Source: Methanospirillum hungatei JF-1
Lineage (GTDB): Archaea; Halobacteriota; Methanomicrobia; Methanomicrobiales; Methanospirillaceae
Direction: 5' to 3'
Assembly: GCF_000013445.1 (NCBI RefSeq)
Contig: NC_007796.1
Span: 434,001-498,000, forward strand
Length of the DNA: 64,000 nucleotides
Shown here: positions 30,735 to 61,361 of the stretch, in pieces
Numbering within the stretch: the stretch's first letter is position 1
How the letters are laid out: the number at the start of each line of letters is the position of its first letter
Notes under the pieces: model-generated
Told to the model about the DNA's origin: nothing
Seen by the model: only the letters and a program-made list of their open reading frames with translations
The model's database searches: none
Position numbers and translations under genes: made by a program

Positions 30735-30803
30735 ATTATTATTTAATTATTTTGATATTTCGAAGGGACAGGTTTGCGAGTTATTCATGGGGAGAGTAGG
30801 GAT

Positions 30804-32552
30804 ATGTGTTTAAGGAATGTGATGATTACCACGTTTTTTTGCATCGGTTTGATTACAGGCATCTTTCATGTTTCAGCCCAATTAAGTGATTCAGGTATCT
30901 TTGGAGTTCAAAATATTGGAATACCGCTTATACCTGGTCATTCTGGTTCTGATTATATATTCATTGGTGATTATTCGGATGGGCAGATTCGGATCCTTGC
31001 TCCGGGTTTGTATTACTGCACAGATAATATGAGAACCACATCAGAAGACTATGCAATCCGACTCGAAAATCAGAGCGTTACACTGGATGGAAGTGGCCAC
31101 CAGGTCATGGGTTCTGGAGGATTTTGTGATGGTGTGCAAATCCTGCCAGAGAGTTATCAGTGTATTATTAGAAATTTCAGTCTGATTTCAGATTTTTACC
31201 ATGGTATTTATTCTGAAGGTGAATACGCATTCATACATAATAACACGATCAGAAATGCATCAGCCCATGGTATTCAATCAAGAGGAAATTATTCACAGAT
31301 ACATTTTAATACGGTTGAAGATACTGGTGATGTTTGTATCTTTTCATATGGTGATAATTCATCTTTATATCATAATTATGTCTTTCGGGGGAGGAACGGG
31401 ATATTAAATCATGGAAATCATGCAGATATCTCAAGGAACTATGCTATCAATAATTATCGATATGGGATTGCTGCTGGAGGTGTCTATGTAGGTCCTGATC
31501 CTGGTGATACAGGAAAAGGGTACTATACGATCATGAAGGATAATATTGCCCTCATGAATGGGTATAGTGGATTGATCAGCTACATGCCGCATGGGGTTGT
31601 TCACGACAATATTGCCATTCAGAATTCTCGAGCTGGAATAGATACAACAGCTCGTAGTAATAATACGACTCTTTCAGGAAATATGGTGGTGAACAATTCT
31701 CTCGGTATCAGGATATCTGACCAGGCACGAGACCTCATCGTACGACATAATCGTATCACCGCTCATACACAGGCTGACCTCTTTATTCTTCAGAATAACA
31801 GTTGTGGGTATGGTGCGATATTTGATAATTACTTTGGGAGCCTTGTGCATCTTGATGGAGCAGGGCATATAGAAAATATCACCTGGACAAATCCGAATGG
31901 ACCGACTCCAGGTAAAAACATCATATCAGGACCATTTATTGCAGGTAATTATTGGAGTAATCCTGATGGGAACGGCTGGTCTGATATCCAGGCTCCATCA
32001 GTGACCGGGTATTCGCAGGTTCCCTACGAGGTGAAGTCTGGCCAGGGTGTGTATGATACCGCTCCACTAGTCAGAATCGGTCATAATGTGTCATCTTTTG
32101 CTGATGAATGGACAATTATCCATCCCATTGGAAATATCACCTATCCCCGGTATTCAGATCCATACTATATAACACAGGCAAAACCCGGGGCTGTATTGAA
32201 TAATCTCCGGGTAGATGGATTTTTGAATGCATCGGCTCCTTCTTATACCTTTTCATCTATTGATCAGGATCATATCATAGAAACGAATGGCAGCCCTGAA
32301 CAGGATCAGGTTCATGTCCGGTTTACGTACTCACCCAGTGTTGGGAACTATCCTCTGAAAGTGCAATTTACTGATAATTCAATTGGAAGTCCGAATTCCT
32401 GGTACTGGCAGTTTGGTGATGGCAGTAATTCAACAGAGAAGGATCCGGAACATATATATATGATTCCTGGACGGTATTCGGTTTCACTCAGAGCGTTTAA
32501 TGATATAACTGGGGGTAATTCAGTCTGTAATAATTGTATTACCGTTCTATAG
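30804..32552 (+). CDS. Secreted parallel beta-helix protein with C-terminal PKD module
   Basis: About 582 residues from ATG 30804, chosen over the TTG at 30774. A signal peptide (VMITTFFCIGLITGIFHVSA) is followed by a NosD/right-handed beta-helix region of roughly 300 residues with repeated N-rich turns (HNNTIRNASAHGIQSRGNYS, NHGNHADISRNYAINNY, DNIALMNGYSGLISYM, HNRITAHTQADLFILQ). After residue 430 comes the shared tail: DEWTIIHPIGN, YYITQAKPGAVLNNLRVDG, then a PKD domain (YPLKVQFTDNS, SWYWQFGDG, RYSVSLRAFND) and a CNNCI ending. Surface or carbohydrate-binding/lyase-like protein; no catalytic residues could be assigned. The leader is 60-70 nt after the IS. Confidence 0.85.
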   Translation: MCLRNVMITTFFCIGLITGIFHVSAQLSDSGIFGVQNIGIPLIPGHSGSDYIFIGDYSDGQIRILAPGLYYCTDNMRTTSEDYAIRLENQSVTLDGSGHQVMGSGGFCDGVQILPESYQCIIRNFSLISDFYHGIYSEGEYAFIHNNTIRNASAHGIQSRGNYSQIHFNTVEDTGDVCIFSYGDNSSLYHNYVFRGRNGILNHGNHADISRNYAINNYRYGIAAGGVYVGPDPGDTGKGYYTIMKDNIALMNGYSGLISYMPHGVVHDNIAIQNSRAGIDTTARSNNTTLSGNMVVNNSLGIRISDQARDLIVRHNRITAHTQADLFILQNNSCGYGAIFDNYFGSLVHLDGAGHIENITWTNPNGPTPGKNIISGPFIAGNYWSNPDGNGWSDIQAPSVTGYSQVPYEVKSGQGVYDTAPLVRIGHNVSSFADEWTIIHPIGNITYPRYSDPYYITQAKPGAVLNNLRVDGFLNASAPSYTFSSIDQDHIIETNGSPEQDQVHVRFTYSPSVGNYPLKVQFTDNSIGSPNSWYWQFGDGSNSTEKDPEHIYMIPGRYSVSLRAFNDITGGNSVCNNCITVL

Positions 32553-32728
32553 TTGGATGATGCAGATGAGAGTCTTGCTATTCACCCATAATTTTTCTCA
32601 TGTTTTTGTTGTAATGTCTCTTTAATTTTGCATTAATTATGGATTTTTATCGCGAAAAGAATGAATTATTAATTGAAATCTCGATATGTGATAGATAATA
32701 TAATAATGTTATACATAGAAGAAAATGT

Positions 32729-34690
32729 ATGGATGGGCTACATTCAGGACTAATAAAGACAATAATCTGTGTGGGTTTAGTACTCCTTCTGGGAGGGCTC
32801 ATTCCTGTTATGGCTGAAGAACAGCCTGACCTGCATCATAAGATGTTTAATTCAGGAGTAAAAAGTTCGCTCTTTTTGGAAGACAGGGATGTAAATTACT
32901 CCCGAGAGAAGATACCGTCTGAAATGAGTAATTATGGTCCAAGAATGGAAACCCGGCAAGAAAATACTTCACTCTTTTCCACTGCCGGAATCCCGGTTGT
33001 AGAGCGGAACTGGCAGAGATCAGTAGGAGGATCAGATGATGAAGGGATCTGGTCCGTTCTTCATACAAATGATGGGGGATATCTAATTGGAGGGTATACA
33101 TATTCAACAGATGGGGATGTCACTGGAAACCATGGATGGGATGATGCCTGGATTGTGAAACTGGGTCCTGCCGGCAACCTTCTCTGGCAGAAATGTCTGG
33201 GCGGTACTGATTTTGACAGCGCACGTTCTACCATTCAGACTTCTGGTGGCGGATATTTAGTGACCGGATTTACGGATTCAAATGATGGTGATGTCTCCGG
33301 CAATCATGGCTGGTCAGACATGTGGGCTCTGAAAACCGATTCCTCAGGTAATCTGGTTTGGCAGAAATGCCTTGGTGGAACAGATGATGAGAGTTCTCGT
33401 TCGGTCATTGAGACTACTGATGGCGGGTATCTTCTTGCCGGATACACCTGGTCAGATGATGGGGATGTTTCAGGCAATCATGGGTTGTCTGATTATTGGA
33501 TTGTTAAAATCGATAACCTCGGCAATCTGATCTGGCAGAAGTGTTTTGGTGGTTCCGAATACGATCATGCATATTCAGTCATTGAGACATCTGACGGGGG
33601 ATACCTGGTTGCAGGATATTCGTATTCCACTGATGGCGATGTCTCCGAAAATCATGGCAACAGTGATTATTGGGTAATAAAGATTGATAAATCCGGTAAT
33701 CTGATCTGGCAGAAATGTCTGGGTGGTTCGGATTTTGAGTATGCACATTCAGTTATTGAGACATCTGACGGGGGATACCTGATTGCAGGATATTCGTATT
33801 CCAATGACGGCGATGTCTCCGAAAATCATGGCAACAGTGATTATTGGGTAATAAAGATTGATAAATCCGGTAATCTGATCTGGCAGAAGAGTCTAGGTGG
33901 ATCAGATGATGATCATGCATATTCAGTCATTGAGACTTCAGATGGCGGATATCTGCTTGCCGGATATTCCTGGTCAGATGATGGCGATGTCTCTGGAAAT
34001 CACGGATATGCTGACTATTGGGTAGTAAAACTTGATAATTCCGGTAATCTGATCTGGCAGCAATGCCTTGGTGGATCAGACTATGATGGTGCATATAGAG
34101 TAGTTCAAAATACTGATGGCAGATATTTTATTGGAGGTGATTCAGAATCAAATGACGGTGATGTTTCTGGAAATCATGGCTGGAGTGATATCTGGGTTAC
34201 ATTGGTCTCTCCAATGCATTCCATTTCCGCTTCGTCTGATCCTTGGTCGCTTGTCCATCCGTATGGGACAAAATCATATGTTGAAGGAACGAATGCACTG
34301 TATCTGACTCAGGGAAAACCTGGTGCCATCCTTGAAGATGTTCAGGTGGATGAGGTTTCACAGGGGAACATCTCACATTACACCTTTACTGATATCAATG
34401 ATACCCATTCGATTAATACAACTGGAACGCCTGTACCTGGCCAAATTCATGTGATATTTACTATCTCTCCACAATCCGGAAGTGTTCCTCTAACAGTCGA
34501 GTTCAATGATACTTCTATAGGAGGACCTTCATCTTGGTACTGGCAGTTAGGTGATGGAACGAGCTCTCCGTTACAGAATTTGACCCATACCTACACCATT
34601 CCAGGAACATACACGGTCTCTCTCCGGGCTTATAACAGTCAGACCGGTGGATATGGAGTATGTAATGATTGTATCCAGGTAAATTCTTAA
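32729..34690 (+). CDS. Secreted seven-bladed beta-propeller protein with C-terminal PKD module
   Basis: 653 residues, ATG 32729. Signal peptide (LIKTIICVGLVLLLGGLIPV MA), a short polar region, then seven repeats of 58 residues, each built as CLGGSDxD-AYSVIETSDGGYLLAGY-S-DGDVSGNHG-SDYWVVKID-SGNLIWQ. Seven such four-strand units are expected to close as a propeller. The repeats end near residue 495, followed by the shared tail (DPWSLVHPYGTKSYVEGTN, YLTQGKPGAILEDVQVDE, PKD with WYWQLGDG, and CNDCI). No enzyme residues could be assigned; a binding or adhesive surface protein is likely. Confidence 0.88.
   Translation: MDGLHSGLIKTIICVGLVLLLGGLIPVMAEEQPDLHHKMFNSGVKSSLFLEDRDVNYSREKIPSEMSNYGPRMETRQENTSLFSTAGIPVVERNWQRSVGGSDDEGIWSVLHTNDGGYLIGGYTYSTDGDVTGNHGWDDAWIVKLGPAGNLLWQKCLGGTDFDSARSTIQTSGGGYLVTGFTDSNDGDVSGNHGWSDMWALKTDSSGNLVWQKCLGGTDDESSRSVIETTDGGYLLAGYTWSDDGDVSGNHGLSDYWIVKIDNLGNLIWQKCFGGSEYDHAYSVIETSDGGYLVAGYSYSTDGDVSENHGNSDYWVIKIDKSGNLIWQKCLGGSDFEYAHSVIETSDGGYLIAGYSYSNDGDVSENHGNSDYWVIKIDKSGNLIWQKSLGGSDDDHAYSVIETSDGGYLLAGYSWSDDGDVSGNHGYADYWVVKLDNSGNLIWQQCLGGSDYDGAYRVVQNTDGRYFIGGDSESNDGDVSGNHGWSDIWVTLVSPMHSISASSDPWSLVHPYGTKSYVEGTNALYLTQGKPGAILEDVQVDEVSQGNISHYTFTDINDTHSINTTGTPVPGQIHVIFTISPQSGSVPLTVEFNDTSIGGPSSWYWQLGDGTSSPLQNLTHTYTIPGTYTVSLRAYNSQTGGYGVCNDCIQVNS
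33017..34203 (+). repeat. Tandem 174-bp coding repeats (propeller blades)
   Basis: Seven in-frame units of 174 bp. Unit boundaries are visible at the GGCAG(A)A(A)TG(T/C)CT(T/G)GG(T)GG motif near 33189, 33363, 33537, 33711, 33885 and 34059. Units four and five are almost identical over their last third, including the stretch around GGTAATAAAGATTGATAAAT. The high DNA identity points to recent duplication or homogenisation. Confidence 0.9.
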
Positions 34691-34724
34691 TCTTATATTT
34701 TATCGGTCCGTTTTAGAAAATTCT

Positions 34725-36461
34725 TCACGAATGCTGTTTTGTAATTTCAAATATACGAAAACCAATGTTGCCTATGCAGTATAGAATAAACATCTGAATT
34801 CTGGCTTGTGGATATTCCTGTTTCAGGTTTTCTCCATATCTAAGGATCTGCGATGTATCCTGTTCCTGAAGATCCAATGTTTCTAGTGGGATTTTCAGTT
34901 TTTTCCATTCAGTATTGGAATAGTATTTGAATTCAATAATCCATCTGAGGCCAGCAAACCGCTCATGATATTTCCCTACGAATTCGAGATCTGTTCTTCC
35001 CTGTGGATATGAACGCTCAATATTCCAGGTAAACCATGAAAAGAGGATCTGGCTGCAGAACGAATAAAAAGTTGTCCGGTAAAAATTTTCATTCACCTGG
35101 GTAAATATTGCTTCGGGAAGTTTCTTAATATAGAGTTCCCAGTATTTGGAAAAGAGCATGTGAAGATCCGGATTCCTTCCAAACTCCTCCTGCACTGCTC
35201 CATAATCTGTTGTTATATCCATATGGTTTATCTCATTGAAATATTCAACCATGATGGCCCGCATTGAAAGATTAGGCAATTCTAATCTGAATTCATCTTT
35301 TTTTGTCAGCATTCCAAGATAAAAGAATGAGATCGGGTAAAAGTTCCGTTCAAAGAACTGACTCATATTAAACTTAGATACGAGGAGATTTCTGTTATAC
35401 TGGATAGTGTCCTGCACCGTCAGTTCATGGACAAATTCCCCGGTCGTTTTCGGGTTACTACCAGTAATTCTTTTTACCCAGGATAAATCAGTTCGGAGGT
35501 TCAAATCGATAAGGTCTATTGGGATCTTCTGTTGCTCACATAGGAGATCTAGAAAATACATGAGCATGGTAGGATTATACAATTTTTCTCCTTCGGGATT
35601 CACAAAGGTATATCCGTTATATTGGTTTTTTATTGTCTCTTCTACCTGATCTCGCGAATCAGAAGGAAGGGAATAATCGTGAAATATCCTGTCAAGGAGA
35701 TGATTTACCTCTTCCTTGGTAAATCCAAGCATATGTTCAAAGGTTGGAGATAAGGTGATAAATTTTCCAATATTGTAACTGGAAGTCAGGTCATCGATGG
35801 TAATCGGAAGAACTCCGGTGATAAAAACATTGGAAATAGCTCCCGTTTGCCTGCCCGCTTTTAGTACTTTAAAGAATGTTCTAAAAAAACTGTCTCCGGA
35901 GGTTATCTCCCGATACAGATGGTCCTGGTGAGTCGTAATGAGCTGATTTACGAAATTGTCATATTCATCAATAATAACATACACCTGGATTGAATGCGTA
36001 ATGGCTATTTTATCCAACCATACAGATAAATTGGTGGAGGCGTTTCCTTCAGGTTGAACCGGTGGAAAGTCTTTTAATATATCTTCATAAGCAGACTGGA
36101 CACTGATGAGGAGTTCATTGCAATATCGATTAAAATTATGCTCAATTTCAGAAAAATTTTTTGAGATTGGAATCGTTGAAAAATCATATTTGAGGACAAT
36201 GAATGTATTGTGGGTATAAGTCGGGTTTTTTCCAATCCATGTGTGACCAAAAAGTGTTTGGAAACGCCCTGCTTCCTTTTTATCATAATAATAGTGAAGC
36301 ATTGAGCAGAGTAGGGATTTTCCAAATCTTCGTGGTCTTAAAAAAACCGGGTTGTTAACGCTTTCAAGGTCATATATATATTTAGTTTTATCGATAAAGT
36401 AATAGGAGCCATTAATAATTTCTGCATAATTCATCACACCGTAAGGGATTTTTTGTTTCAT
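34725..36461 (-). CDS. AAA-ATPase-like protein with C-terminal PD-(D/E)XK nuclease domain
   Basis: 578 residues; ATG 36461. Same architecture as 20346-22064: KIPYGVMNYAEIINGSYYFIDK, FLRPRRFGKSLLCSML (Walker A-like), VYVIIDEYDNFVNQLIT (Walker B), ITGVLPITIDDLTSSYNIGK (sensor), GRTDLEFVGKYHERFAGLRW and IIEFKYYSNTEW (nuclease core), ending YCIGNIGFRIF. It sits between two plus-strand surface-protein genes and reads against both. It is more diverged from the tandem pair at 20-25 kb than they are from each other. Function is not established. Confidence 0.88.
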   Translation of the reverse strand: MKQKIPYGVMNYAEIINGSYYFIDKTKYIYDLESVNNPVFLRPRRFGKSLLCSMLHYYYDKKEAGRFQTLFGHTWIGKNPTYTHNTFIVLKYDFSTIPISKNFSEIEHNFNRYCNELLISVQSAYEDILKDFPPVQPEGNASTNLSVWLDKIAITHSIQVYVIIDEYDNFVNQLITTHQDHLYREITSGDSFFRTFFKVLKAGRQTGAISNVFITGVLPITIDDLTSSYNIGKFITLSPTFEHMLGFTKEEVNHLLDRIFHDYSLPSDSRDQVEETIKNQYNGYTFVNPEGEKLYNPTMLMYFLDLLCEQQKIPIDLIDLNLRTDLSWVKRITGSNPKTTGEFVHELTVQDTIQYNRNLLVSKFNMSQFFERNFYPISFFYLGMLTKKDEFRLELPNLSMRAIMVEYFNEINHMDITTDYGAVQEEFGRNPDLHMLFSKYWELYIKKLPEAIFTQVNENFYRTTFYSFCSQILFSWFTWNIERSYPQGRTDLEFVGKYHERFAGLRWIIEFKYYSNTEWKKLKIPLETLDLQEQDTSQILRYGENLKQEYPQARIQMFILYCIGNIGFRIFEITKQHS

Positions 36462-36708
36462 GTTTTCATCAAATGTATATCTATGTGAGTTCCTGGTCTG
36501 GATCCATGCAGCTCTTTTTGTCTCAATTCATTTATAATTTGCCGGTAGGTTAGTGAGATTGGAATAATTCTGCCTCATTATTTCTATTATCTCTTGTATT
36601 ATTCCTATTTTTTATAGTTTTGCAAGAAAATCATTTTCATCGATATATTTATTAGATAGTATATTAAAAAACTCATTAATCTATATTTATTCAAGGGGGA
36701 GTAATGAA

Positions 36709-39700
36709 ATGATGGGGAATTTTTTCAAACTTAAAAACATTTTATTGGTACTTTTTGTACTTATTAGCATAACATTATCCTGTTATGGGGAAGAAAATGC
36801 GGCAGATGTTCCTGTGGCATCATCAGCTCCAATTAATCCAGAATACCTGAAGTATTTGGAAAGGGTTAATGCTTTAAATGAGACCGGTGAATTTGCACTT
36901 GGCTATGAACCTCCGGTGATTTCATTTGATCATCTGATTGGGAAACGTCCCTTTGATTCAAATGTTCAGGATTTGTATCCTTCATCGTATGATCTCAGAA
37001 CCTTTGATAAATTAACACCAATTAAAAATCAGAATCCCTGGGGTACCTGCTGGGCATTTGGATCACTTGCATCACTTGAGTCTTCACTGAAACCAAATCA
37101 GACTTACGATTTTTCTGAAAAACATGTAGTCAATCGCAATCTCTGGCTCACTGGTCCTAATACCGGAGGGAATTATCTTAAATCCGGAGGTTATCTTGTC
37201 GCCTGGATGGGGCCGGTGAATGAGACGACCGACCCGTATCCTGTTGACACATGGAATTATACTTCCCCTTCAGGTCCTATAACGAAACATGTTCAGGAAA
37301 TTTACTGGATTCCAGGTATGGCTAACGCTTCAGATCTGGAGACAATTAAGAGTTCAATTGTAAACAATGGTGCTTTGATTAGTTCGTTTTACTGGAATCC
37401 CGCGTCGTATAATTTCACCCATAAATCATATTACTGTCCGACATGTTCAGGTTCCAACCATTGTATTAATCTGGTAGGTTGGGATGATAATTACAACAGG
37501 AATAATTTCACCACTCCTGCGCCTGGTGATGGTGCATTTCTGCTTAGAAACAGTTGGGGTACCAGCTGGGGTGATCAGGGATATGGATGGATATCGTATC
37601 ATGATCCGACAATTGGGAAATACAATGCCCATATCTTTGGTTCGGATGTGAATGATTATTCGGGTATTTATCAGTATGATCCTGCTGGGACTTCATCGTA
37701 TATTGGCATTCCCTCAACAAGCATCTGGGGCGGAAATATTTTTACTGCGACGGCAGATGAAAACCTTACCGCAGTTGGTTTTTATACAAATGATGTCTCT
37801 GCTACCTACGATGTTCGTGTTTATAAAAATCCAACAGCAGGAGGGCCAGTTGGTTCGACCATTCTTTCACAGAAGACTGGGACAATACCGATGAGTGGGT
37901 ATCATACAATTAGTCTTGATACACCAGTTTTCCTTTCCGTTGGTGATATCTTTTCAATTGTTGTTCACTTGACAAATCCAAGTTATGGATATCCACTTGC
38001 AGTCGAGAATCCTGCTTCTGGGCCTATTGGTAATACATGGTCTGCAAATCCGGGTGAAGGATATGTCAGTTCAGATGGAAATTCCTGGACTGATATAGTA
38101 ACAATTCCTGGTTTTGTAAATACCAGCATATGCATTAAGGGGTATACCAATACTATAACACCTCCTCCTGTAGCCAATTTCACCTCGAATGTGACAACAG
38201 GTCTTGTTCCTCTTACTGTCCAGTTCACCGATACGTCAACAGGCAGTCCCACGTCCTGGCTATGGAACTTTGGTGAAGGAAATACTTCATCAAGCCAGAA
38301 TCCGGTTCACACGTATACCACTGCAGGTTTGTATACCGTAAACCTGACTGCTTCGAATGCCGGTGGTTCAGATACAAGAGTTGCACCAGGTTATATCAAT
38401 GTAACAAATCCGGTCCCATTGCCTCCTGTTGCCAGCTTTACCTCAAACGTCACATCTGGAGACATCCCCCTCTGTGTCCAGTTTAATGATACATCTACCG
38501 GAAATCCAACGTCGTTTTACTGGACATTTGGAGATGGTGCAAATACTACAATCCGAAACCCGATTCATACCTATGAAACACCCGGCCTGTATACCGTAAC
38601 CCTCTCCGTCGCAAACTCTGCTGGCTCTAACCTGACGTCAAAAGCGGGTTATATTAATGCAACATCTCCTCTTCCGAATCCATTCGTGACAGGTATCTAT
38701 CCGAATTTTACAAAGGCTGGAATGAATGTAGGATTTAATCTTACTGGTAATTATTTCAGTGAAGGCTCGATAGTCAACCTTACCATGAGTGGTTATAGTA
38801 ATATCACTACATTTGGTAATCTGTCAGGAAGCAATCTGACTGGATTTTTTGATATTCCATCTGGTACTGCAACAGGGATGTGGAATGTCAGTGTGAACCG
38901 CTTTGGTCAGTATAGTAATGATAATGTTCAGTTTCAAGTGCTGCCACCCGTTCCTCCGGTAGCAAGTTTCATTGGAATTCCACGTACTGGTGTGGCCCCG
39001 CTGTTTGTTCAGTTTGCTGATACATCCACTGGCGGTCCGACATCATGGAGCTGGAGTTTTGGCGATGGTGGTCTTTCTACCGATCAGCATCCAAGTCACA
39101 CATATTCTGGAGCTGGTCTGTATACGGTGAGTCTGAATGTCTCGAACAGTGGCGGTTCCAATGTTACGACTGCTCCTGGTTATATCAACGTGACAAGTTC
39201 TGTTGTTCCACCTGTAGCGAGTTTTACTGGCAGTCCCCGTAGCGGTGTTGCCCCGTTATCGGTTCAATTTACTGATACATCCACTGGCGGACCAACCAAC
39301 TGGACCTGGAGTTTTGGCGACGGTGGTCTTTCTACCGATCAGCATCCAAGCCACACATATTCCGGAGCTGGTCTGTATACGGTGAGTCTGAATGTCTCGA
39401 ACAGTGGCGGTTCCAATGTTACGACTGCTCCTGGTTATATCAACGTGTCAAGTTCTGTTGTTCCACCTGTAGCGAGTTTTACTGGCAGTCCCCGTAGCGG
39501 TGTTGCCCCATTATCGGTTCAGTTCACAGATTCCTCAACTGGTAATCCTACTACATGGAACTGGAACTTTGGCGATGGGCTTTCATCTACGATGCAACAC
39601 CCAATGCACACCTATGCAGGACCAGGGCAGTTTACCGTCAATCTAACCGTATCGAATACAGCAGGAACTGACACCCTCACAGCACCAGATTATATTTCGG

Positions 39701-40419
39701 TTTCTGGACCTCCCTCACATTATTCAATTAACGCAAGTTCCGGACCAAACGGGCGAATAGATCCCTCAGGGTTAATAATTATCCCTGCCGGTGGAAATCA
39801 GAGATTTTCCATGATTTCGGATACCGGTTATCAGGTCGGTGATGTTCTTGTTGATCAGGCAAGTGTTGGGCCAGTCGGATGGTATGAATTCAGGAATATC
39901 AGTACTAATCATACCATTTCGGTCAATTTCGAGAGAATACCTGGACAGAAATTAGTGAATGCTTCGGCAAACCGTTGGAGTATCGTGTATCCTCCAGGTA
40001 TTTCAGCATACCAGGAAGGAACGAATTGTACATATATTACTCAGGCAAAACCGGGGGCAGAAATGAAACAGATTTTAATTGATTCAGTCGAACAGAATCT
40101 TTCAGAATTCTGGACATTTACAAATATTTCTGATGATCATAATATCTACACATATAGCGAACCAATACCTGATCAGATCCATGTATTCTTCAGAGGGGCA
40201 CCTTCAACTGGATCAGCTCCTCTGGGCGTGCAGTTTATTGATGAATCCATTGGTACCCCTACGTCCTGGCTCTGGCAATTTGGCGATGGTGAAAAATCAT
40301 ACGATCAAAATCCATATCATGAGTACCAGTCACCTGGAATTTACACCGTAACACTTCGTGCATATAATGGAAAGACCGGGGGGTATGGTGTATGGAGCGA
40401 TGGGGTAATCGTCAAATAA
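36709..40419 (+). CDS. Secreted papain-family (C1) peptidase with lectin-like and PKD domains
   Basis: 1236 residues; ATG 36709 with GGGGGAG about 8 nt upstream. Signal peptide (ILLVLFVLISITLSCYG). Peptidase C1A domain: IKNQNPWGTCWAFGSLASLE with nucleophile Cys114, SGSNHCINLVGWDDNY with His251, FLLRNSWGTSWGDQGYGW with Asn281. Next a lectin-like C1-associated domain (GIYQYDPAGTSSY, FLSVGDIFSIVVHL). Then five PKD-like domains, an IPT/filamin-like stretch at 38670-38940, a beta domain around 39718-39940 (SINASSGPNGRIDPSG) and the shared tail with a final PKD. All catalytic residues are present, so an active extracellular protease is likely. Many N-x-S/T sites are present. Confidence 0.92.
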   Translation: MMGNFFKLKNILLVLFVLISITLSCYGEENAADVPVASSAPINPEYLKYLERVNALNETGEFALGYEPPVISFDHLIGKRPFDSNVQDLYPSSYDLRTFDKLTPIKNQNPWGTCWAFGSLASLESSLKPNQTYDFSEKHVVNRNLWLTGPNTGGNYLKSGGYLVAWMGPVNETTDPYPVDTWNYTSPSGPITKHVQEIYWIPGMANASDLETIKSSIVNNGALISSFYWNPASYNFTHKSYYCPTCSGSNHCINLVGWDDNYNRNNFTTPAPGDGAFLLRNSWGTSWGDQGYGWISYHDPTIGKYNAHIFGSDVNDYSGIYQYDPAGTSSYIGIPSTSIWGGNIFTATADENLTAVGFYTNDVSATYDVRVYKNPTAGGPVGSTILSQKTGTIPMSGYHTISLDTPVFLSVGDIFSIVVHLTNPSYGYPLAVENPASGPIGNTWSANPGEGYVSSDGNSWTDIVTIPGFVNTSICIKGYTNTITPPPVANFTSNVTTGLVPLTVQFTDTSTGSPTSWLWNFGEGNTSSSQNPVHTYTTAGLYTVNLTASNAGGSDTRVAPGYINVTNPVPLPPVASFTSNVTSGDIPLCVQFNDTSTGNPTSFYWTFGDGANTTIRNPIHTYETPGLYTVTLSVANSAGSNLTSKAGYINATSPLPNPFVTGIYPNFTKAGMNVGFNLTGNYFSEGSIVNLTMSGYSNITTFGNLSGSNLTGFFDIPSGTATGMWNVSVNRFGQYSNDNVQFQVLPPVPPVASFIGIPRTGVAPLFVQFADTSTGGPTSWSWSFGDGGLSTDQHPSHTYSGAGLYTVSLNVSNSGGSNVTTAPGYINVTSSVVPPVASFTGSPRSGVAPLSVQFTDTSTGGPTNWTWSFGDGGLSTDQHPSHTYSGAGLYTVSLNVSNSGGSNVTTAPGYINVSSSVVPPVASFTGSPRSGVAPLSVQFTDSSTGNPTTWNWNFGDGLSSTMQHPMHTYAGPGQFTVNLTVSNTAGTDTLTAPDYISVSGPPSHYSINASSGPNGRIDPSGLIIIPAGGNQRFSMISDTGYQVGDVLVDQASVGPVGWYEFRNISTNHTISVNFERIPGQKLVNASANRWSIVYPPGISAYQEGTNCTYITQAKPGAEMKQILIDSVEQNLSEFWTFTNISDDHNIYTYSEPIPDQIHVFFRGAPSTGSAPLGVQFIDESIGTPTSWLWQFGDGEKSYDQNPYHEYQSPGIYTVTLRAYNGKTGGYGVWSDGVIVK
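38951..39715 (+). repeat. Tandem 255-bp PKD-encoding repeats (three units)
   Basis: Three in-frame units of 255 bp (85 codons) begin at TTCC(T/A)CC(G/T)GTAGC positions 38951, 39206 and 39461. The second half of unit one and unit two are nearly identical, and units two and three share an identical first 60 bp (CCCCGTAGCGGTGTTGCCCC). This shows recent homogenisation of coding repeats. Confidence 0.9.
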
Positions 40420-40799: not shown

Positions 40800-43658
40800 A
40801 TGATAGAGAGTAACATCGAAAAAATATTTTCCAAGACCTATTTGGTAAAATGGTTAGTATGTCTTCTAACCTTTTTAATGTCTTTAGTTTTGGTCCAACC
40901 TGGGACAGCACTATTGTACCCGTCTTTTTATGGGATGAACCAGGCAAATATGACTCTGGTTGTATCAGATAATTTCTCTCAGGATAATCTGGCATATGGA
41001 GATTTTTTATATCTGTTTGATACCACGACTGCAAGTGCCGGTGATTCAGTTAATACGAGACATTGGAATATTACGGTAACAGAACCAACTGCATATAGTG
41101 GATCACGTGATTCATATATTCCAAATCCAGTATTCGGTCCGTTTTTAAATGAAACTTCGATTATTGTAAATCTTACGTTAACAAACGCCACATCTGTCAG
41201 TTATAATGGAACTGATGTGTACCAGGTTATAGATGGTAGGAAATGGATTAGACCATCATATTCGGTAACCGCTGATTTCCGAAACAAAACAGCAACTAAT
41301 CCGATAGGGACAATCCGGTTTAATGACACTTCTGAAGAACTCCTGTTTCCGATGGCAGAGATCACCGATTGGTGGTGGAAGGTAACCGATAATTCTGGTG
41401 TACCACAAAACACGTCAGGTTGGGATAATTTTACAGTCAATATGACTGATACCGATTATTATCAGGTAAATCTGACCGTGAGGAATAGTCAGGGGAATCT
41501 TGCCTCCTTATCTGGGTATACTGGAGCTCCAGAGGATGGAAATGGTCTTATTGCTAATTTTGCTGCAGTACCTGTTGCTGGAACTGCTCCCTTAAATGTG
41601 AGTTTTATTGATCTTTCATCTGGGGAAATAACAAGTTGGGATTGGGATTTTGATTTCCTCGGTATTGATTCCACGAATTTACATAGTTCATATAATCAGA
41701 ATCCCACTCATACCTATAAGAAACCAGGGATTTATTCTGTTAATCTCACAATTTATGAGGGTTCGAACAGTAAATCTTGTCTAGCTGGAGACATGATCAC
41801 GGTTTATCCTCCTCCGGTTTACCTGGCTGTAGCTCCAACAAAAGGTGAGAAGCCATTGAATGTTACGGTTATTTCACGGTCCTATGGGCTGAATGCATCA
41901 CCAATATATGAATGGGACTTCGGAAATGGAATGGTAGTTAATACCACAACACCTTCGTACGTGTATACCTATAATCCGGGTGGTGTGAATCCATCTCAAT
42001 CATGGAATTATACTATTCGTCACACCGTGTATTCTGACGGGGTTGCGTATCCTGCGCAAAATACCCAGAATGTAACTATTGAAACACCTGCTCCACCCAG
42101 GGCACGATTTGCAGCGGTTCCACAATCTGGACCAGCCCCGCTGAAAGTATCTTTTGTTGATCAGTCTGAAGGGAAAGAACCATTTGATTATATCTGGAAT
42201 TTCGACGATGGAAAACCGAATGTGTATGATGTTCAGAATCCTACGGTAACTTTTGAGACGCCGAAAGTCTACAATGTTACGTTATACTTTAATGCATCAA
42301 ATGGTGCTGATCAGGCGTATGTTCTAGTGAATGTTACTGAACCTGTTCCTCCAGTCATTGATTTCGCCGTCGCGCCGACAAAGGGTTATAACCCTCTGAA
42401 TGTGACGGTGATATCTCAGTGCAGCGGTCTGAATGAATCCCCTGTTTTTGAGTGGGACTTTGGTAATGGAACAAAAAGGACGACTACTGATTTATCATAT
42501 GTGTATCAGTACAAGCCATATAGTCCAAATCCGAATATGGTGTGGGAATATCCGATAAATCTTACGGTTTACTCGGATGGGCTGATTTACTATGCATCGA
42601 AAAGCAGAAATGTGACTGTGGAAAATGCACCAACTCCAAAAGCTGCATTTAATGCTTATCCCCGAATCGGGTCGAGACCTCTTGAGGTTTCATTCTTTGA
42701 TCAGTCAATTGGACAGGAACCTATCAATTATGAGTGGTATTTTGGAGATAATACTCCAAAGGTATTTGAGCAGAACCCGGTTCATGTGTACAATGAAACT
42801 GGAGAATTTAATGTTACTTTGATGATTCATGCGAAGAATGGGAATGACATAATTAATCAAACTGGTTTAATCCGCGTGACAGATTATCCGATTCCTAATG
42901 TATCATTTAGTATGGCTCCTGTGAGTGGATACGCGCCCTTGAAAGTATCCTTCATTGATCAGACTTGTAAACAGGACTGTTCATATGAATATTTCTGGCA
43001 GTTTGGTGAAGGAAATACTTCTACGAAAAGGAATCCGGTCTGGGAATATGTGACGCCTGGTAATTATTCTGTAAATCTTACTGTGACGGATAAGTATGGA
43101 GTCAGTGGAAAAGGAAATGGTCTGGTGAATGTTACAGTCATGCAGCCTTCTGGTGGGGATGATGGGCAGTTAGTTGCGAATTTTACTGCATTATCCACAA
43201 GAGGAGTAGCACCTTTTGAGGCTCATTTTATTGACCAGTCAAGTGGCAATCCAAAAGGTTGGAGATGGGATTTTAGTGATAAAAATGTTTCATTTGATCA
43301 AAGTCCAAATCACACTTTTTTCAAACCTGGAATATACAACGTTACCTTAGAGGTATATAATAAGACATCGTATTCATCAAATATTACAAAACTTGATTAT
43401 ATTACTGCAATATCTCCCATAATTGATGCATGGTTTTCATTTCGATATATTGGTGATCAATCAACCCGCCTTGTTCAATTTTTTGATGGTTCAAAAGGAG
43501 TTGGAATAAATAGCTGGGAATGGACATTTGGGGATGGAACTACTTCAACAGAGATCAACCCTGTTCATTTATATAGTTCGAAAGGAATTTACAATGTAAA
43601 ATTGCTAGTATCCAATGGATATGCTAAGGATATTTTTGAGTATGTAGTTTACATTTAA
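40800..43658 (+). CDS. Large secreted multi-PKD surface protein
   Basis: 952 residues; ATG 40800 with a GGTGGGG-type ribosome site. Signal region LVCLLTFLMSLVLVQPGTAL. A unique N-terminal domain of about 230 residues (YGDFLYLFDTTTASAGDSV, RHWNITVTEPTAYSG, WIRPSYSVTADF), then about eight PKD domains (WDWDF, YIWNFDDG, WYFGDN, FWQFGEG, WRWDFSD, WEWTFGDG). A 540-bp block coding a PKD pair is present twice (about 41816-42355 and 42356-42892). No C-terminal anchor was seen. The N-terminal part resembles methanogen S-layer or sarcinarray-type N-termini; I did not recognise a named family with certainty. Dense N-glycosylation sites. Confidence 0.8.
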   Translation: MIESNIEKIFSKTYLVKWLVCLLTFLMSLVLVQPGTALLYPSFYGMNQANMTLVVSDNFSQDNLAYGDFLYLFDTTTASAGDSVNTRHWNITVTEPTAYSGSRDSYIPNPVFGPFLNETSIIVNLTLTNATSVSYNGTDVYQVIDGRKWIRPSYSVTADFRNKTATNPIGTIRFNDTSEELLFPMAEITDWWWKVTDNSGVPQNTSGWDNFTVNMTDTDYYQVNLTVRNSQGNLASLSGYTGAPEDGNGLIANFAAVPVAGTAPLNVSFIDLSSGEITSWDWDFDFLGIDSTNLHSSYNQNPTHTYKKPGIYSVNLTIYEGSNSKSCLAGDMITVYPPPVYLAVAPTKGEKPLNVTVISRSYGLNASPIYEWDFGNGMVVNTTTPSYVYTYNPGGVNPSQSWNYTIRHTVYSDGVAYPAQNTQNVTIETPAPPRARFAAVPQSGPAPLKVSFVDQSEGKEPFDYIWNFDDGKPNVYDVQNPTVTFETPKVYNVTLYFNASNGADQAYVLVNVTEPVPPVIDFAVAPTKGYNPLNVTVISQCSGLNESPVFEWDFGNGTKRTTTDLSYVYQYKPYSPNPNMVWEYPINLTVYSDGLIYYASKSRNVTVENAPTPKAAFNAYPRIGSRPLEVSFFDQSIGQEPINYEWYFGDNTPKVFEQNPVHVYNETGEFNVTLMIHAKNGNDIINQTGLIRVTDYPIPNVSFSMAPVSGYAPLKVSFIDQTCKQDCSYEYFWQFGEGNTSTKRNPVWEYVTPGNYSVNLTVTDKYGVSGKGNGLVNVTVMQPSGGDDGQLVANFTALSTRGVAPFEAHFIDQSSGNPKGWRWDFSDKNVSFDQSPNHTFFKPGIYNVTLEVYNKTSYSSNITKLDYITAISPIIDAWFSFRYIGDQSTRLVQFFDGSKGVGINSWEWTFGDGTTSTEINPVHLYSSKGIYNVKLLVSNGYAKDIFEYVVYI

Positions 43659-43805
43659 TAATCCTTTTTGCATCTTTTTTGATTATTGCTACAGAGGAAA
43701 TTTAGTTAAATTTATATATTATTTTTTATATAGCATAATCTATTGATTGTTTGGTTTTTGTGGTCTGACCATGATCAAACATATTCATTGGGGGAGCAAT
43801 TCAAA

Positions 43806-46595
43806 ATGATTGAAAAAACATTTGAATTTCAGGAAAGAAATTCTAAACTACAAAATCGATGGGGTTTTGGTATTGTTGTACTGATGTGTTCTGTACTTTG
43901 TTTAATCATTTTTTCTAATATTGTATCAGCTGAAATGACAATCAGTGGTCCTGATTCGGTTAAGCGGGGGAATGATTCTTTTACGGTTATTGTTAATGAA
44001 ACAGTTCGGCCATCAGAATCATATTATTTTGGTTTGATCATTAATCCTCAAACAATGACTGGTGATGTATGCGATAGACCTCCCTACATTATTGATGATT
44101 TTATTTATTCAAAAATACCAGGTCAGGCATGGGATGCATATTATGAGCCGGAACAGGATAAAGGAGAAAAATTTTATGAATTATCTCCCAATAATCTCTC
44201 GTACCCATCAAATAGCACATGCTGGGATGTTCCATGGAATGGTACGCATTATATGGTAGAATTATGGGCTGATCAATACAATACCGGAGATTGGTATTTA
44301 ACACCAGATGGAATATGGCACCATGATATAAATATTGGCTTAAGATATCCGGATTTTTCAACCTCCGTGAAACCCGGTGAATATACTTTTCATGTTCAAA
44401 AAGCATCAGCTCATCGTAAACCAAATCTGCCAAAACCAGTAAGTCCAGTTCGGAAAATTGATTTTGAGGATTATAAGGTAAATATTGTTGTTGGTGGTTT
44501 TGACTTTTCTTTTTATGATTATTCGGCATATTATAGTATACCACCTGAATTGATACCCGTTAACTCAGCTGGTAAAGGTGAAAAAGTTATATTGAATGGA
44601 ACAAATTTTGATAGCGATGCTATTTATCTTTGGATTACTGGTGAAGGCTTACCGAAATGTGGAACGTCATTAAAGGTTAATAATTTACCCGTAAATTCTA
44701 ATGACCCTCTTATTGTAGGCTTCACTGATCGAAAGAATGGGACTTGGGAATATAAATGGGATATTTCTGAAACAATTCTTGAGCCTGGCAAATATACGAT
44801 ATATGCATCGACAATTAATCCCGATGATCTAGTAACAGAATTTTTCAATCGTCCAAATGAATGTGGATCAATTTGTAAAACACGAGAAGAAGGTGTTTGT
44901 GCATTACTGGATTGTCCTACCTGCACCTGTTTGGCACCAATTATCAAAAAAGATTTTACAATTACTGAATTAACAACGAATATTAATTCAATTGATAAGG
45001 TTGAACCCTGTTGTTGCCCTGGTTACCCATGTGGGTTTACGTCATCTTTGGTCAATATTACATTAAGTGGTATATTTGGTGATTCACGAACTCCCATGCA
45101 GATTTGGATGTTTGGTAATAATCAAATATATGATAAGAATTATCTATTTACTGATAATTTCACGACCTTCCTGGATGCAGATGGAAGCTTCCAATTAGAT
45201 ATTTATGAGTATTTATTAAAGCCAAATGGGTTAGATTTATGTGATTTGGATAATGGAGAGTATTATTTACTTGTTCAACTACCCGGACAAACAAACCAGT
45301 CAAAACAAGTTTTTGATGTTACATTAGAAAATTCAACATTTTATAAAAAAATCTCCACTTTAGAGCCGAATACATTTTTAATGTCTAACCTCACAAAAGA
45401 CAATCTGTATGTTGTAAAGTCAGATCCATTTTTCTGGACAAAGGCATTTCCAGTTTTAGGTCCGAATTCATATACTGGTAAACGAGCCTTTGATAAATTA
45501 ACAACCCTTTTAGATGAGGCATGGGTCAGGGACCGATATGTGACAACATCATTCTTCCTAGAACCTATCCGTTGTAAACAAGATGCTTTAAGCTTCATTG
45601 CTACCCCGCAGGAAGGCTATGTTCCATTAACGGTTCAATTTACAGATCAATCAACCTTTAATGGGACCGCTTATTCTTGGGATTTTGGAGATGGTTTAAC
45701 ATCTACAGAGAAAAACCCTCAACACATTTATAATAAATCTGGAATTTATGATGTTACATTAACAATTGAGGGTACAGGGACAGACGGAAAGCAGAAGAAT
45801 CCGTTAAGGAAATACAATTATATTATTGTACGGGACATTCCTGCAAAATATTATGATCCAGTTGCAGACTTTACCATATCCAAGGTTGCAAATGAACCAT
45901 TCAGTATTCAGTTCATCGATCAGAGTTATGGTGCAACCCCGCTGACAAGTATCTGGGACTTTGGGGATAACTCAACATCTGGAGAGAAGAGTCCAAAACA
46001 CCAGTATGCATCTGCTGGAACATATACTGTTAATCTGACAGTAAAGGATCAGTATGACAAAGAATCAACCAAGACTCAGGACATCCTTGTCCCATCGGTC
46101 AGTCCTCCGGTTCCTGACTTTGAATTTACTATAAACCCCAATCAGATGAAACAGGTGCAGTTTACTGACAAATCCCAAGGAGAGATCACCTCATGGAAAT
46201 GGACCTTTGGTGACGGTCTGGGCTCATCAATACAAAGCCCTGAACACCTGTATACCACGTATGGAACATTTTCAGTCACTCTGACGGTTGGAAATAATGC
46301 CGGTTCACAGTCATTCACAAAGGAAATCACACTGATCGATCCAAAGGTCTCTGCAGACTTTTCATGGGAAGATATTGGTGAGAGAACCGTGAGGTTTTTG
46401 GACAATTCGAAGGGGCTCATCACCGAGTGGACTCTTGAGTATGGCGATGGCAAAGTCGACCAGTTCACAGAAGCATGGGATGAAGTCGAGCATACCTACT
46501 CTCAACTCGGCAGATATTATGCGAAATTGACTGTTAAAAATGATTATAATAAAGATTCTGTTACAAAACAGATCGATGTTCTCAAACGGCAATAA
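43806..46595 (+). CDS. Secreted surface protein with cysteine-rich cassette and PKD domains
   Basis: About 929 residues from ATG 43806, preferred over 43743 because GGGGGAGC lies 9 nt upstream. Membrane-type signal (FGIVVLMCSVLCLIIFSNIV SA). It then has TISGPDSVKRGNDSFTVIVN, MTGDVCDRPP, a tall beta region, ANPDD-type turns and the cassette VCALLDCPTCTCL and EPCCCPGYPCGFT shared with the next three genes. The last 310 residues are four PKD-type domains (YSWDFGDG, SIWDFGDN, WKWTFGDG, and a degenerate TLEYGDG). The 5' two-thirds are AT-rich; the last 750 bp are much richer in G+C. It lacks the DUF3821 N-terminal domain of the next gene. Confidence 0.82.
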   Translation: MIEKTFEFQERNSKLQNRWGFGIVVLMCSVLCLIIFSNIVSAEMTISGPDSVKRGNDSFTVIVNETVRPSESYYFGLIINPQTMTGDVCDRPPYIIDDFIYSKIPGQAWDAYYEPEQDKGEKFYELSPNNLSYPSNSTCWDVPWNGTHYMVELWADQYNTGDWYLTPDGIWHHDINIGLRYPDFSTSVKPGEYTFHVQKASAHRKPNLPKPVSPVRKIDFEDYKVNIVVGGFDFSFYDYSAYYSIPPELIPVNSAGKGEKVILNGTNFDSDAIYLWITGEGLPKCGTSLKVNNLPVNSNDPLIVGFTDRKNGTWEYKWDISETILEPGKYTIYASTINPDDLVTEFFNRPNECGSICKTREEGVCALLDCPTCTCLAPIIKKDFTITELTTNINSIDKVEPCCCPGYPCGFTSSLVNITLSGIFGDSRTPMQIWMFGNNQIYDKNYLFTDNFTTFLDADGSFQLDIYEYLLKPNGLDLCDLDNGEYYLLVQLPGQTNQSKQVFDVTLENSTFYKKISTLEPNTFLMSNLTKDNLYVVKSDPFFWTKAFPVLGPNSYTGKRAFDKLTTLLDEAWVRDRYVTTSFFLEPIRCKQDALSFIATPQEGYVPLTVQFTDQSTFNGTAYSWDFGDGLTSTEKNPQHIYNKSGIYDVTLTIEGTGTDGKQKNPLRKYNYIIVRDIPAKYYDPVADFTISKVANEPFSIQFIDQSYGATPLTSIWDFGDNSTSGEKSPKHQYASAGTYTVNLTVKDQYDKESTKTQDILVPSVSPPVPDFEFTINPNQMKQVQFTDKSQGEITSWKWTFGDGLGSSIQSPEHLYTTYGTFSVTLTVGNNAGSQSFTKEITLIDPKVSADFSWEDIGERTVRFLDNSKGLITEWTLEYGDGKVDQFTEAWDEVEHTYSQLGRYYAKLTVKNDYNKDSVTKQIDVLKRQ

Positions 46596-46849
46596 ATATC
46601 TTTACAATCTCTCTTTTTCTCTTTTAAAAAAGTGATAATCTTTTTTTTTCTTCAGTATTAAAAAAGAATAATAGAAATATTTATATTCTTCATTAAATAT
46701 ATGATGTATATTATCACAGAATGGGGGCTATTGAGCAATCAATTTGGTGAGATGGAGGAAGCGACGACAAATCTGATTTGAATTTTTTCAATCGGTATTG
46801 GCGGTCATTTCTTTCAGGTTAGAGAAATCTCATGGATGGAGTGGTGTTG
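46596..46849. promoter_or_regulatory. Promoter and long leader of the DUF3821 surface-protein gene
   Basis: T-rich termination-like runs (TCTCTTTTTCTCTTTT, CTTTTTTTTTC) follow the previous gene. A TATA-like element ATATTTATATTC near 46676-46687 is followed by about 150 nt of leader that becomes GC-richer and contains GGGGGCT and GGAGGAAGCGACGAC. A ribosome site GGAGTGGTG precedes the ATG at 46850. A long leader is unusual for archaea with many leaderless mRNAs and may carry structure. Confidence 0.5.
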
Positions 46850-49800
46850 ATGAAAAAAGACAAATTAATCGATTTTAAGAAAGGTCTGTTCGCACTCATG
46901 GTGCTCTGTGGTATAGGCATTCTCCTTATACCGCAAGTATCGGCCGCAGGGATTAATATTAATGTTCCGATTGTAGAACAGAATACCACGGTTTTCATTG
47001 GTGAAGAAGGGCTTGATATATCAAATGCGCTGATAGATCCAAACACTGGAAACCCGGTATATCTCCTCGGATGGTGGGGGGATGATGTTGAATCTGGTGG
47101 ACATACATCAGCAGATAAATATATCACGATCGCTCCGGGGAGTGTGACCAACTATTATGTCAACCCGACTGAGTATATGATGAATAATCGATACACAGAG
47201 GGTTCTTTTTATATCTGTGATGAGACTACTGGTCAGGCTATTTATTATAATGGATACCCTGTTGTCGCTTTTTATGTAGAGTTACCTCATCTTGAACTCG
47301 TTCCGGCTGATGATGTATGTCCTGATGTAAACCGGACCGGGCAGGTCTTCCTTGGAACAAATCTGAACTTTAACATTAAGACCAACCTGTACAAGATTCA
47401 GAACAGGCCTGGAGGTCAGAACAGCGCGATATTTGATATCAATGTCATCGGACCGAATGGAAAGGATTACAACTACCTCCTCGGTCCTGATGCCGGAGGG
47501 TGTAACTGTCCGGATTGTAATCCGAATTATCCGGCAATAGGTATCAAGGATATCAATATTCTGACCAACAAGCATCAGTGGCAGACTTGGGATACCGATG
47601 CAATCGATCCACAAACCGGTCTTTTGTATTCACCTCAGGGAACATATGCCATATCGGCAACCTGCTGGGCAAATCACATATTAGACAATTACGTAACAAT
47701 AGGTGGGGCAAAATCAGCCACAACAAATCTGGAACTGGTTGTAGAGACCGTGAGTGTTACGGTAAATCCTGGGACCATTCTAAGAACCGAAACGGCAACT
47801 GCCACGGTGACGGGGAAACCACAGACTGAGTACATCATCGCTCTCATGGAATGTCCTCTTAAGATGACCGGTGAGATCTGTGACCGCCCGCCATGGTTTG
47901 AGAATGATCCACTTAATGTTGCGTTGCAGTTTGATCCTGAAGGCGGTCCATATACCATAGGAAAAGAAATTGTCTATCCGTCCTGTTGTGATGGGCTAAC
48001 CTTCAGAGATGTCGTGCCAAAGGTATACCATGACGGTGTGCTCTATTATGCAAGTATTACCACTGACTGTCTTGGAAAAGCAACGATAGACATCAAAGTG
48101 GATAATACGGTCTGGAAAGCGGATAATAACCCTGTATATACGATCCATGTTCAGAAACGTGCTCCCGAATGTAATGGAATTCACCTGTTTGCGGAGACTG
48201 AATTAACTGTTAAAAAGGGTGATATTTCCATCCAGATCTCACAGGCATCAGATACAACAAATGCACCCATCACTGAGGCATATCTTGGTGATACCCTCAA
48301 GATCGCTGGATCAAATACCGACAGTCTGAGAACCTATCTGTACATGACCGGTCCATGTCAGCCTGAATGTGGTGGAGGCCTGATACCGATTCCATATCCA
48401 CATGGACCAATTGGAGATGGACCTGAAGTCATTGATGTAAGTCTTCCACCCATCGAAGGATTTGACTGGATATTTACCAACAATGATGCCACTGGAAAGC
48501 CACGGTACTGGGAGACCAGATACCTGCCTATGAATCCAGGGACCTATACCATATGGGCGATTAGTAACTGGCCGCCAAACTGTCCAAATTGTCTTGATTG
48601 CGGTGGTCATCCGTGCTTTACAAACCCGGAGACTTGTCCTGGATGTGATGGAAAGGTATGTTCACTCCTTGATTGCCCGAACTGTGATGTGTATGCCGTT
48701 GCAACTATCGAACTGAAGGCTCCTGAACTTACCGCGATTACTGAGGATATTGAGCGGTGCTGTTGCTCAGGATATCCCTGTGGAACCACCATCGATAGTC
48801 ATCCTATCAACGTTAGTGGAGTTTCAACCGGAAATCCGAAGAAAGAGCTGAATGTCTGGCTCTTTGGCAAAGGAAAGATCGGCGACGAGAAGTTCATGAA
48901 CATAAAAGTGCCTGTCAATTGTGACGGGACGTTTGTATTTGATGTGGTGAAAGATATTCTCGGATATTATGGTATTCCATTGTGCAGAATAGATTCAGGT
49001 ACCTATGATCTGATCATTCAGGATGCAGGATATAATCATCAGTATGATGTCATCTATGAGGATGATCTTGATCCTTCAATATGGGCCAGACCTGTGGAAG
49101 TGAACAAAAAATGGATCATCATGGGTCATCCAGACATCGGTCCGGTAGAGAATTATTCAGAGATTAATCCTGGAGAACAAAATCCAAATGAAGATTTCCT
49201 TACTCATGTGGATACAACAACTTTAGTTGTTCCCGATCCAGACTCCCAGAAGTTCTACGACGACGACTGGCGTAAACTCGTCCAGGTAGAAGGACCGGGG
49301 TACAAGCTCGGAACTGAAGTCCTCTATGCTCTCATCAAGGGCCTTGACGATCCAAGCGTTGACGACAACTATGTCCACATCCAGTTCACCGTCACAGACA
49401 AATCCTGTCTGGTTGGAACTGACTTTGATGCAGATCGGACTTACGGAAACAAACCGCTGACCGTCCGGTTCACTGACAAGAGTTACAATGCAACATCATG
49501 GCTCTGGAACTTTGGAGATGGAACAACCTCCACTGAACAGAACCCAACACACACCTTCACTGAAGAAGGCCGGTATACAATCAGCCTTACCACCAATGGT
49601 GATGAGAAGGGTAAAGCAGTAAAGAACGATTACATCCGGGTAGCAAAAGGCCCGACTGCAAAGTTCGCCTTTGCACCAAAAGATGTAACGGTAGGAACTG
49701 AAGTTCAGTTCACTGACCTCTCGTCAGGTAACCCGACCTCCTGGATGTGGCACTTTGGTGATGGTTCATCCTCACCACTCCAGAGTCCGGTGTATACCTA

Positions 49801-50137: not shown

Positions 50138-50664
50138 TCGATCCTCATTTCTTTTTTACTTTTATTTTTATACTATCCGCAATTTCTCATCATGTGGCAC
50201 CTCTGAAAATAAGAGCAAATTAAGAATATTTCAAAGCCCCTTATTTCCGCGGCATACATGCATCAGAGCGATCTGAAAAACCTGAAAGATAATAGTACCT
50301 TTCCGAATTAAAATCATCAGTGAATTTTTCTCTTTGAAATCACAAGGAAAGCATTCGTGATTTTTCGATTTATCTACATATATTGGAAAAAATATATATC
50401 ATCTTGTGAAATATCTTCGATGCAGTTTTCGATGCTTCAATGTGTAATATAAATAGGATATATTTCGAAAAACCTTATTTTTGAGATACTTATGGAAATA
50501 TTTATATTAGAAATAATATATAGGATTTTTATTATCTACGTATGGGAGTTGAATACGCCACAGAAGCTACCATGGGGTGTGATAGACAGATCGGTGAGTG
50601 CCATACCTGTATCATTCTGGTACGGGGATGATATGAGATCTGCCTGAACGTGGGGTGTTTTCAG
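50138..50664. promoter_or_regulatory. Terminator, promoter and long leader between two DUF3821-type genes
   Basis: 527 bp. A T-rich run (TTTCTTTTTTACTTTTATTTTT, 50150-50171) after the stop suggests termination. A second promoter-like region, GGAAATATTTATATTAGAAA at about 50492-50511, is followed by roughly 140 nt of leader rich in G (ATGGGAGTTG, CATGGGGTGTG, GTACGGGGATG) before the ATG at 50665. The leader has several short inverted repeats but no recognised riboswitch. Confidence 0.5.
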
Positions 50665-54543: not shown

Positions 54544-54544
54544 G

Positions 54545-61302: not shown

Positions 61303-61304
61303 TC

Positions 61305-61335: not shown

Positions 61336-61361
61336 GATATCATTTTGAATATGATAATCAA

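Follow-up and report, generated by a model that had tools for sequence, protein, structure and literature searches.

How do proteins reach the envelope of sheathed archaea and stay in it, and which of them make up the end plugs or add new hoops to the sheath? These questions are open. Genome context is reported to have given no candidates, and both the plug and the assembly proteins are described as unknown (PMC11576556); the plug proteins are likewise listed as unknown elsewhere, with the remark that PKD proteins in this role cannot be ruled out (PMC6242892). We analyzed a 64,000-nucleotide stretch of the Methanospirillum hungatei JF-1 genome (NC_007796.1, positions 434,001 to 498,000; ‘the window’, to which coordinates refer unless a locus is named), in which three different proteins end in one C-terminal tail – here called the module. 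The tail also ends further, varied proteins of the genus and is thus probably a tag by which diverse proteins are retained in the envelope.

A sequence-only reading of the window had reported a common C-terminal pattern on three surface proteins with unrelated N-terminal parts, and the open reading frames (ORFs), the alignment and a family scan all bear this out. The three ORFs lie on the plus strand in the window's ORF list (Table 1), and the tail makes up their last ~157 residues (32079-32549, 34214-34687 and 39946-40416). The tails align without large gaps, the other two being 47% and 43% identical to the first (beta-helix) tail and the mean column identity of the three-tail alignment being 68%. 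Each of the motifs W-x-[IL]-[VI]-[HY]-P, Y[IL]TQ[AG]KPGA, H-x-I-x-T, Q[IV]HV-x-F, WQ[FL]GDG and CNNC/CNDC/WSDG is present. Ahead of the tail, Pfam and NCBIfam place a NosD/beta-helix region in the first protein, a repeat propeller in the second, and a papain-like (C1) protease with Lectin_like and PKD domains in the third.

The tail comprises an ~83-residue beta domain (domain 1) and a terminal PKD domain (domain 2). When the propeller tail was used as a query against its own genome, it retrieved the other two over their full length (E 1.1e-49 and 5.7e-49). The whole tail occurs in only these three JF-1 proteins, the remaining 135 genome matches being PKD domains or weak repeats. The match is more than a PKD match, because domain 1 of the propeller protein alone still finds the other two tails at E 1.4e-20 and 1.5e-16; PKD similarity as the sole explanation is ruled out by these scores and by the limitation of domain 1 to these proteins. 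The earlier account of the tail, PKD domain included, needed refinement in two respects: the second half of the tail is a PKD domain of the ordinary Pfam kind, and just ahead of its tail the protease has a fourth, internal and more generic copy of domain 1. This internal copy is related to the tail domain (E 1.1e-5, 33% identity), lacks the signature residues described below, and reaches 46-52 bits in profile searches that give the tails at least 106.

What kind of domains are these? Both sequence (PF18911, 48 bits versus a cut-off of 27) and structure (collagenase PKD structures matched at TMt 0.73-0.78) identify domain 2 as PKD. In the module it mostly carries WQFGDG and LRAxNxxTGG, with a CxxC at the end of some copies. 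For domain 1, scans of the three module domains gave no credible Pfam or NCBIfam match, and PF18998, the divergent InlB B-repeat family, had no match up to E 10 in the three module domains or the internal protease copy. The module profile does match residues 605-679 of the protein at locus L051, a segment that Pfam assigns to PF18998, and domain 1 shares with generic repeats a skeleton of I4, P16, G18, G37, V43, V45, D46, G51, T57, F58, H65 and I67. These sequence features argue that domain 1 is derived from the divergent InlB B-repeat type. An ordinary InlB repeat is ruled out as a full account: in the genus scan 40 copies reach 109 bits or more, a frameshifted one has 86, and the remaining matches, generic repeats, do not exceed 59. 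A signature of seven residues – W11, Y22, Q33, K35, A38, W56 and G71 – is found in 80-97% of module copies and 0% of 50 generic repeats, and P36 (100% versus 14%) and Q77 (98% versus 38%) follow the same direction, in a comparison built on the profile's own alignment, where exact percentages lean to the module. Written as a motif, the genus-specific signature of domain 1 is W/Y/TQxKPGA/GQVHVxF.

AlphaFold models the whole tail as a two-domain beta structure (predicted local distance difference test score, pLDDT, 96; predicted template-modelling score, pTM, 0.69) and domain 1 alone with a pLDDT of 94. The domain 1 model had no PDB match below E 0.2. The best PDB match of the tail model is the M. 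mazei surface-layer protein 1l0q, through the PKD half, and collagenase PKD domains matched too. The tail had been put forward as a candidate undescribed module; this holds for domain 1 insofar as Pfam and NCBIfam have no model for it, and does not hold for the domain types, both of which are variants of known ones. In the literature searched, which left out most subscription journals, we found no paper describing this fixed, genus-specific terminal module.

The sequence-only reading had proposed a profile search of archaeal genomes for other proteins ending in the tail. A profile (A3) built from 27 copies was searched against the 12 genus genomes, 108 from the GTDB family and a phylum sample of 394 genomes. 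In all, 41 copies came up, 38 of them beyond the three of JF-1, all in Methanospirillum and spread over seven of its 12 genomes. No further copy was detected among the other family genomes or in the phylum sample, and the best match outside the genus (61 bits) lay in generic repeats; a single-sequence query of a named-genome collection gave nothing beyond a match to PKD in a Bacteroidetes bin. Relatives encode up to ten module proteins per genome, and the type strain JF-1 three. The copies are scattered over the genomes, with some genes in tandem or clustered. Three module genes in G163 and G167 (L060, L062 and L066) seem to be frameshifted or stopped early inside the tail, which suggests ongoing gene loss among the copies.

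In the extracted genes the module is last in 41 of 41 copies, with only one or two PKD domains after domain 1; an occurrence in mid-protein, which the earlier reading had named as evidence against itself, was looked for in all 41, and none is internal. Domain 1 is followed by 74-79 residues (one PKD) in JF-1 (G000), in G182 and in single copies of G511 and G512, and by 169-170 residues (PKD-linker-PKD) in most other copies, two truncated copies having a shorter remainder. Generic relatives of domain 1 occur as tandem repeats anywhere in proteins, and the module domain once per protein.

The cargo ahead of the module varies widely. Among 30 upstream parts scanned with Pfam, most have NosD/beta-helix regions, and others have repeat propellers, papain-like domains with or without a lectin-like domain, a subtilase (L058), NosD with LVIVD and an alpha/beta hydrolase (L051), or DUF7948 with SBBP and PKD (L052); some had no Pfam match. 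Mapped onto a tree of the tails, cargo type requires 12 changes, the minimum possible being six. The starred branches of this tree force at least four changes for beta-helix and three for papain, and related copies tend to retain their cargo. This pattern is one of domain exchange rather than of one old family whose N-terminal parts diverged. The proposal of exchangeable effectors on a fixed C-terminal module is strongly supported, at least five cargo types being joined to a tail that is always terminal.

We then considered how such proteins could leave the cell and remain on it. Where the 5' end of a gene model is intact, the protein starts with a strongly hydrophobic, signal-peptide-like segment (~1.9 or more), judged by hydropathy only. 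The tail itself had been said to contain no membrane helix and no known sorting signal, and both statements hold up: the highest 17-residue hydropathy is 0.85 in the three JF-1 tails and at most 1.62 in all module tails, versus 2.36 in a PGF-CTERM control, and no Pfam or NCBIfam sorting model matched. The JF-1 genome encodes archaeosortase A and a single PGF-CTERM (PF18204), on an S-layer (surface-layer) protein; most genus members likewise have one. An 873-amino-acid ORF with PGF-CTERM and a 377-amino-acid ORF, at the expected gene spacing, match Mhun_2263 (S-layer) and Mhun_2271 (sheath), respectively. With the only PGF-CTERM on the S-layer protein, the module proteins, if retained, would therefore need other means. 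A cysteine link to the disulfide-bonded sheath was considered and is not a general mechanism, because not all copies retain the CxxC, which is present in two of the three in JF-1, in the G182 cluster and in one G512 copy.

The genomic neighborhood offers a further clue. In JF-1 the three module genes are followed by what, by counting, are Mhun_0421 and Mhun_0422, and then by three S-layer paralogs with DUF3821. G000 (JF-1), G182, G167 and G163 share the order module gene(s), 0421, 0422, S-layer paralogs and 0426, and in G510 a module gene adjoins the 0421 ortholog. The DUF3821 domain of the last paralog starts at residue 143, which fits the ~100-residue N-terminal extension reported for Mhun_0425 (PMC11641113); this gene is therefore most likely Mhun_0425, and the gene before it Mhun_0424. 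Mhun_0424 and Mhun_0425 have both been identified in preparations of the sheath by mass spectrometry (PMC11641113). G149 and G171 have no canonical module, and the same cluster in these genomes holds cysteine-protease-like proteins, typed from sequence (e.g. GNCGNCWAWAS), with a divergent module and PKD. Because these clusters also encode them, a tail-bearing papain-like protease in the S-layer/sheath cluster appears to be a recurrent feature of the genus. The divergent InlB-like and PKD tails of the G149/G171 loci L107 (4390-9681) and L108 (4089-8569) have a short extra end, YTFSNV or VLFFGP, and look like a second module subtype.

Table 1. Module-bearing genes of JF-1, their tail domains and the adjoining surface-protein genes (window coordinates)
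Feature	Position	Strand	Basis and remarks	Locus tag
Beta-helix (NosD-like) protein with module	30774..32552	+	PF05048 7e-33, PF13229 2e-14	probably Mhun_0417, by counting
Module domain 1 (InlB-B-repeat-like), beta-helix protein	32079..32327	+	alignment, domain search, profile	
Module domain 2 (terminal PKD), beta-helix protein	32328..32549	+	PF18911 1.2e-12; CNNC near end	
Repeat beta-propeller protein with module	32729..34690	+	NF047494 partial 9e-12, below cut-off	probably Mhun_0418, by counting
Module domain 1, propeller protein	34214..34462	+	domain search, profile; AlphaFold pLDDT 94	
Module domain 2 (terminal PKD), propeller protein	34463..34687	+	PF18911 1.4e-12; CNDC near end; whole tail pLDDT 96	
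Papain-like protease with Lectin_like, PKD and module	36709..40419	+	PF00112 8e-21, PF18560 2e-48, PF18911	probably Mhun_0420, by counting
Internal generic InlB-like repeat of protease, not module	39718..39948	+	E 1.1e-5	
Module domain 1, protease	39946..40194	+	alignment, domain search, profile	
Module domain 2 (terminal PKD), protease	40195..40416	+	Pfam PKD, alignment; WSDG replaces CxxC	
PKD-repeat surface protein	40800..43658	+	Pfam PKD; synteny in G182, G163, G167, G510	Mhun_0421, by counting
S-layer-like/PKD protein	43743..46595	+	NF041431 partial 9e-21, below cut-off; synteny	Mhun_0422, by counting
DUF3821 S-layer-protein paralog	46832..50137	+	PF12863 1.4e-48	Mhun_0423, by counting
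DUF3821 S-layer paralog	50650..54543	+	PF12863 3e-41	most likely Mhun_0424
DUF3821 S-layer paralog with ~100-residue N-terminal extension	54530..58240	+	PF12863, residues 143-361	most likely Mhun_0425

Genes of other kinds surround and interrupt the cluster. A transposase-like gene (29008-30645, minus strand), IS1182-like by eye, immediately precedes the first module gene, which is on the plus strand, and an AAA-type ATPase/nuclease-like gene of the archaeal kind (34725-36461, minus strand) sits between the propeller and protease genes. Further AAA-type ATPase/nuclease-like genes are found on the plus strand at 25722-27008, 27180-28610 and 62673-63710, the last with a DUF4143 match. A nucleotidyltransferase and HepT pair (61278-62248, plus strand) forms an MNT/HepT-type toxin-antitoxin module.

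We lean, by a little over even confidence, towards the tail being a C-terminal module that docks exchangeable cargo non-covalently to the envelope – S-layer, sheath or plug. Such proteins would first be exported by Sec through their N-terminal hydrophobic segment; the folded module would then attach to a component of the Methanospirillum envelope. Its most likely target there would be the S-layer or the S-layer paralogs lying under the sheath, or else the sheath or end plug. Proteases, beta-helix proteins and propeller proteins would in this way stay in the gap between membrane and sheath and not be lost by diffusion, and some cargo might remodel sheath, S-layer or plug as cells grow and divide – a role suggested by papain-like proteases in a cluster that adjoins sheath-associated S-layer paralogs. 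The module has a narrower distribution than the family of sheath genes, which makes a Methanospirillum-specific partner in the S-layer or plug more likely than MspA. A narrower proposal can be entertained tentatively, and we think it doubtful in full: that the sheath/S-layer/end-plug compartment has in the module its dedicated, non-covalent sorting tag, whose cargo, with the papain-like proteases of the S-layer cluster, includes proteins that build, cut or plug the sheath.

Several observations weigh against envelope docking. PKD and InlB-like domains elsewhere also serve as spacers or in substrate binding. Most of the 37 genomes with MspA relatives, out of 199 in the order, lack the module, which led us to reject co-occurrence with sheath genes as proof; and the module is not required for a sheath, because MspA-type sheath genes are also present in Methanospirillum genomes that lack it. 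Finally, the main text of the sheath study names the S-layer paralogs, and not the module-bearing proteins, in the sheath (PMC11641113). At locus L050 (3133-6851, G182) an MspA-type sheath gene precedes a module gene of the same orientation by ~540 bases, an adjacency that by rough estimate is within chance, given the many MspA genes per genome.

The tail could instead be an accessory that binds a substrate or partner outside the cell's own envelope, for instance a syntrophic bacterium's surface or an extracellular polymer. The structural match of the PKD half to collagenase PKD domains would suit this account, as would beta-helix, propeller and protease cargo, which would be at home on extracellular enzymes or adhesins; yet one module on functionally very different cargo implies one common ligand, and a ligand on the self envelope better explains why the module is restricted to one genus, strictly C-terminal and linked to S-layer paralogs, so we consider an external ligand unlikely. 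We assign a similarly low probability to the tail being a mere stalk or stabilizing cap – a duplicated Ig-like spacer pair spread by gene conversion and domain shuffling, with no targeting role. Both domains are common spacer types, their generic relatives stand in tandem anywhere in proteins, and module genes are sometimes tandem or clustered. Spacers tolerate internal positions, however, whereas every copy here is terminal; the copies are also scattered over genomes, and signature residues frequent in the module and absent from generic repeats suggest a specific constraint.

Of the two roles originally offered, surface attachment and secretion, the latter is the less likely, because a Sec-type hydrophobic segment already stands at the N-terminus of intact gene models. 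A tail read by an export or sorting machine and perhaps cleaved, as in type IX secretion, would explain the terminal position, exchangeable cargo and folded beta domain, which resemble the type IX layout as generally known. But Methanospirillum has no outer membrane, no dedicated machine is a conserved neighbor in the loci compared, and the Pfam and NCBIfam scans yielded no sorting model, which together make a secretion or processing signal highly improbable.

Envelope docking, if correct, would yield a short testable list of candidates for the sheathed envelope – three proteins in JF-1 and up to ten per genome in relatives, proteases among them – and the module itself could be used as a tag in reporter fusions or as pull-down bait. 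Should it only bind outside ligands, it would still clearly exemplify domain exchange among surface proteins of archaea.

The module can be set against several known systems. Like the divergent InlB B-repeat (PF18998, Flg_new_2), domain 1 has the generic-repeat skeleton; unlike it, domain 1 falls below PF18998 even at E 10, has its own signature, and occurs once per protein and always C-terminally. Domain 2 is PKD (PF18911/PF00801) in sequence and structure, and differs in its usual WQFGDG and LRAxNxxTGG and occasional CxxC; it is terminal in G000 and G182, whereas a second PKD follows it in most other genomes. The M. mazei protein 1l0q is also an archaeal surface protein, one that joins a YVTN propeller to PKD, but going by its PDB title it has propeller and PKD only. 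As terminal domains that take exchangeable cargo to a surface layer, the Bacteroidetes type IX C-terminal domain and the WxL, SLH and GW wall-binding domains are, from general knowledge, comparable; none of them matched in the Pfam and NCBIfam scans, envelope and lineage differ, and to our knowledge type IX machinery is not expected in a single-membrane archaeon. PGF-CTERM, with archaeosortase A, is likewise a C-terminal tag that fixes proteins to the archaeal surface, but it is a short motif with a membrane helix and a basic end that is processed by an enzyme, whereas the module is a folded beta structure of ~157 residues with no helix.

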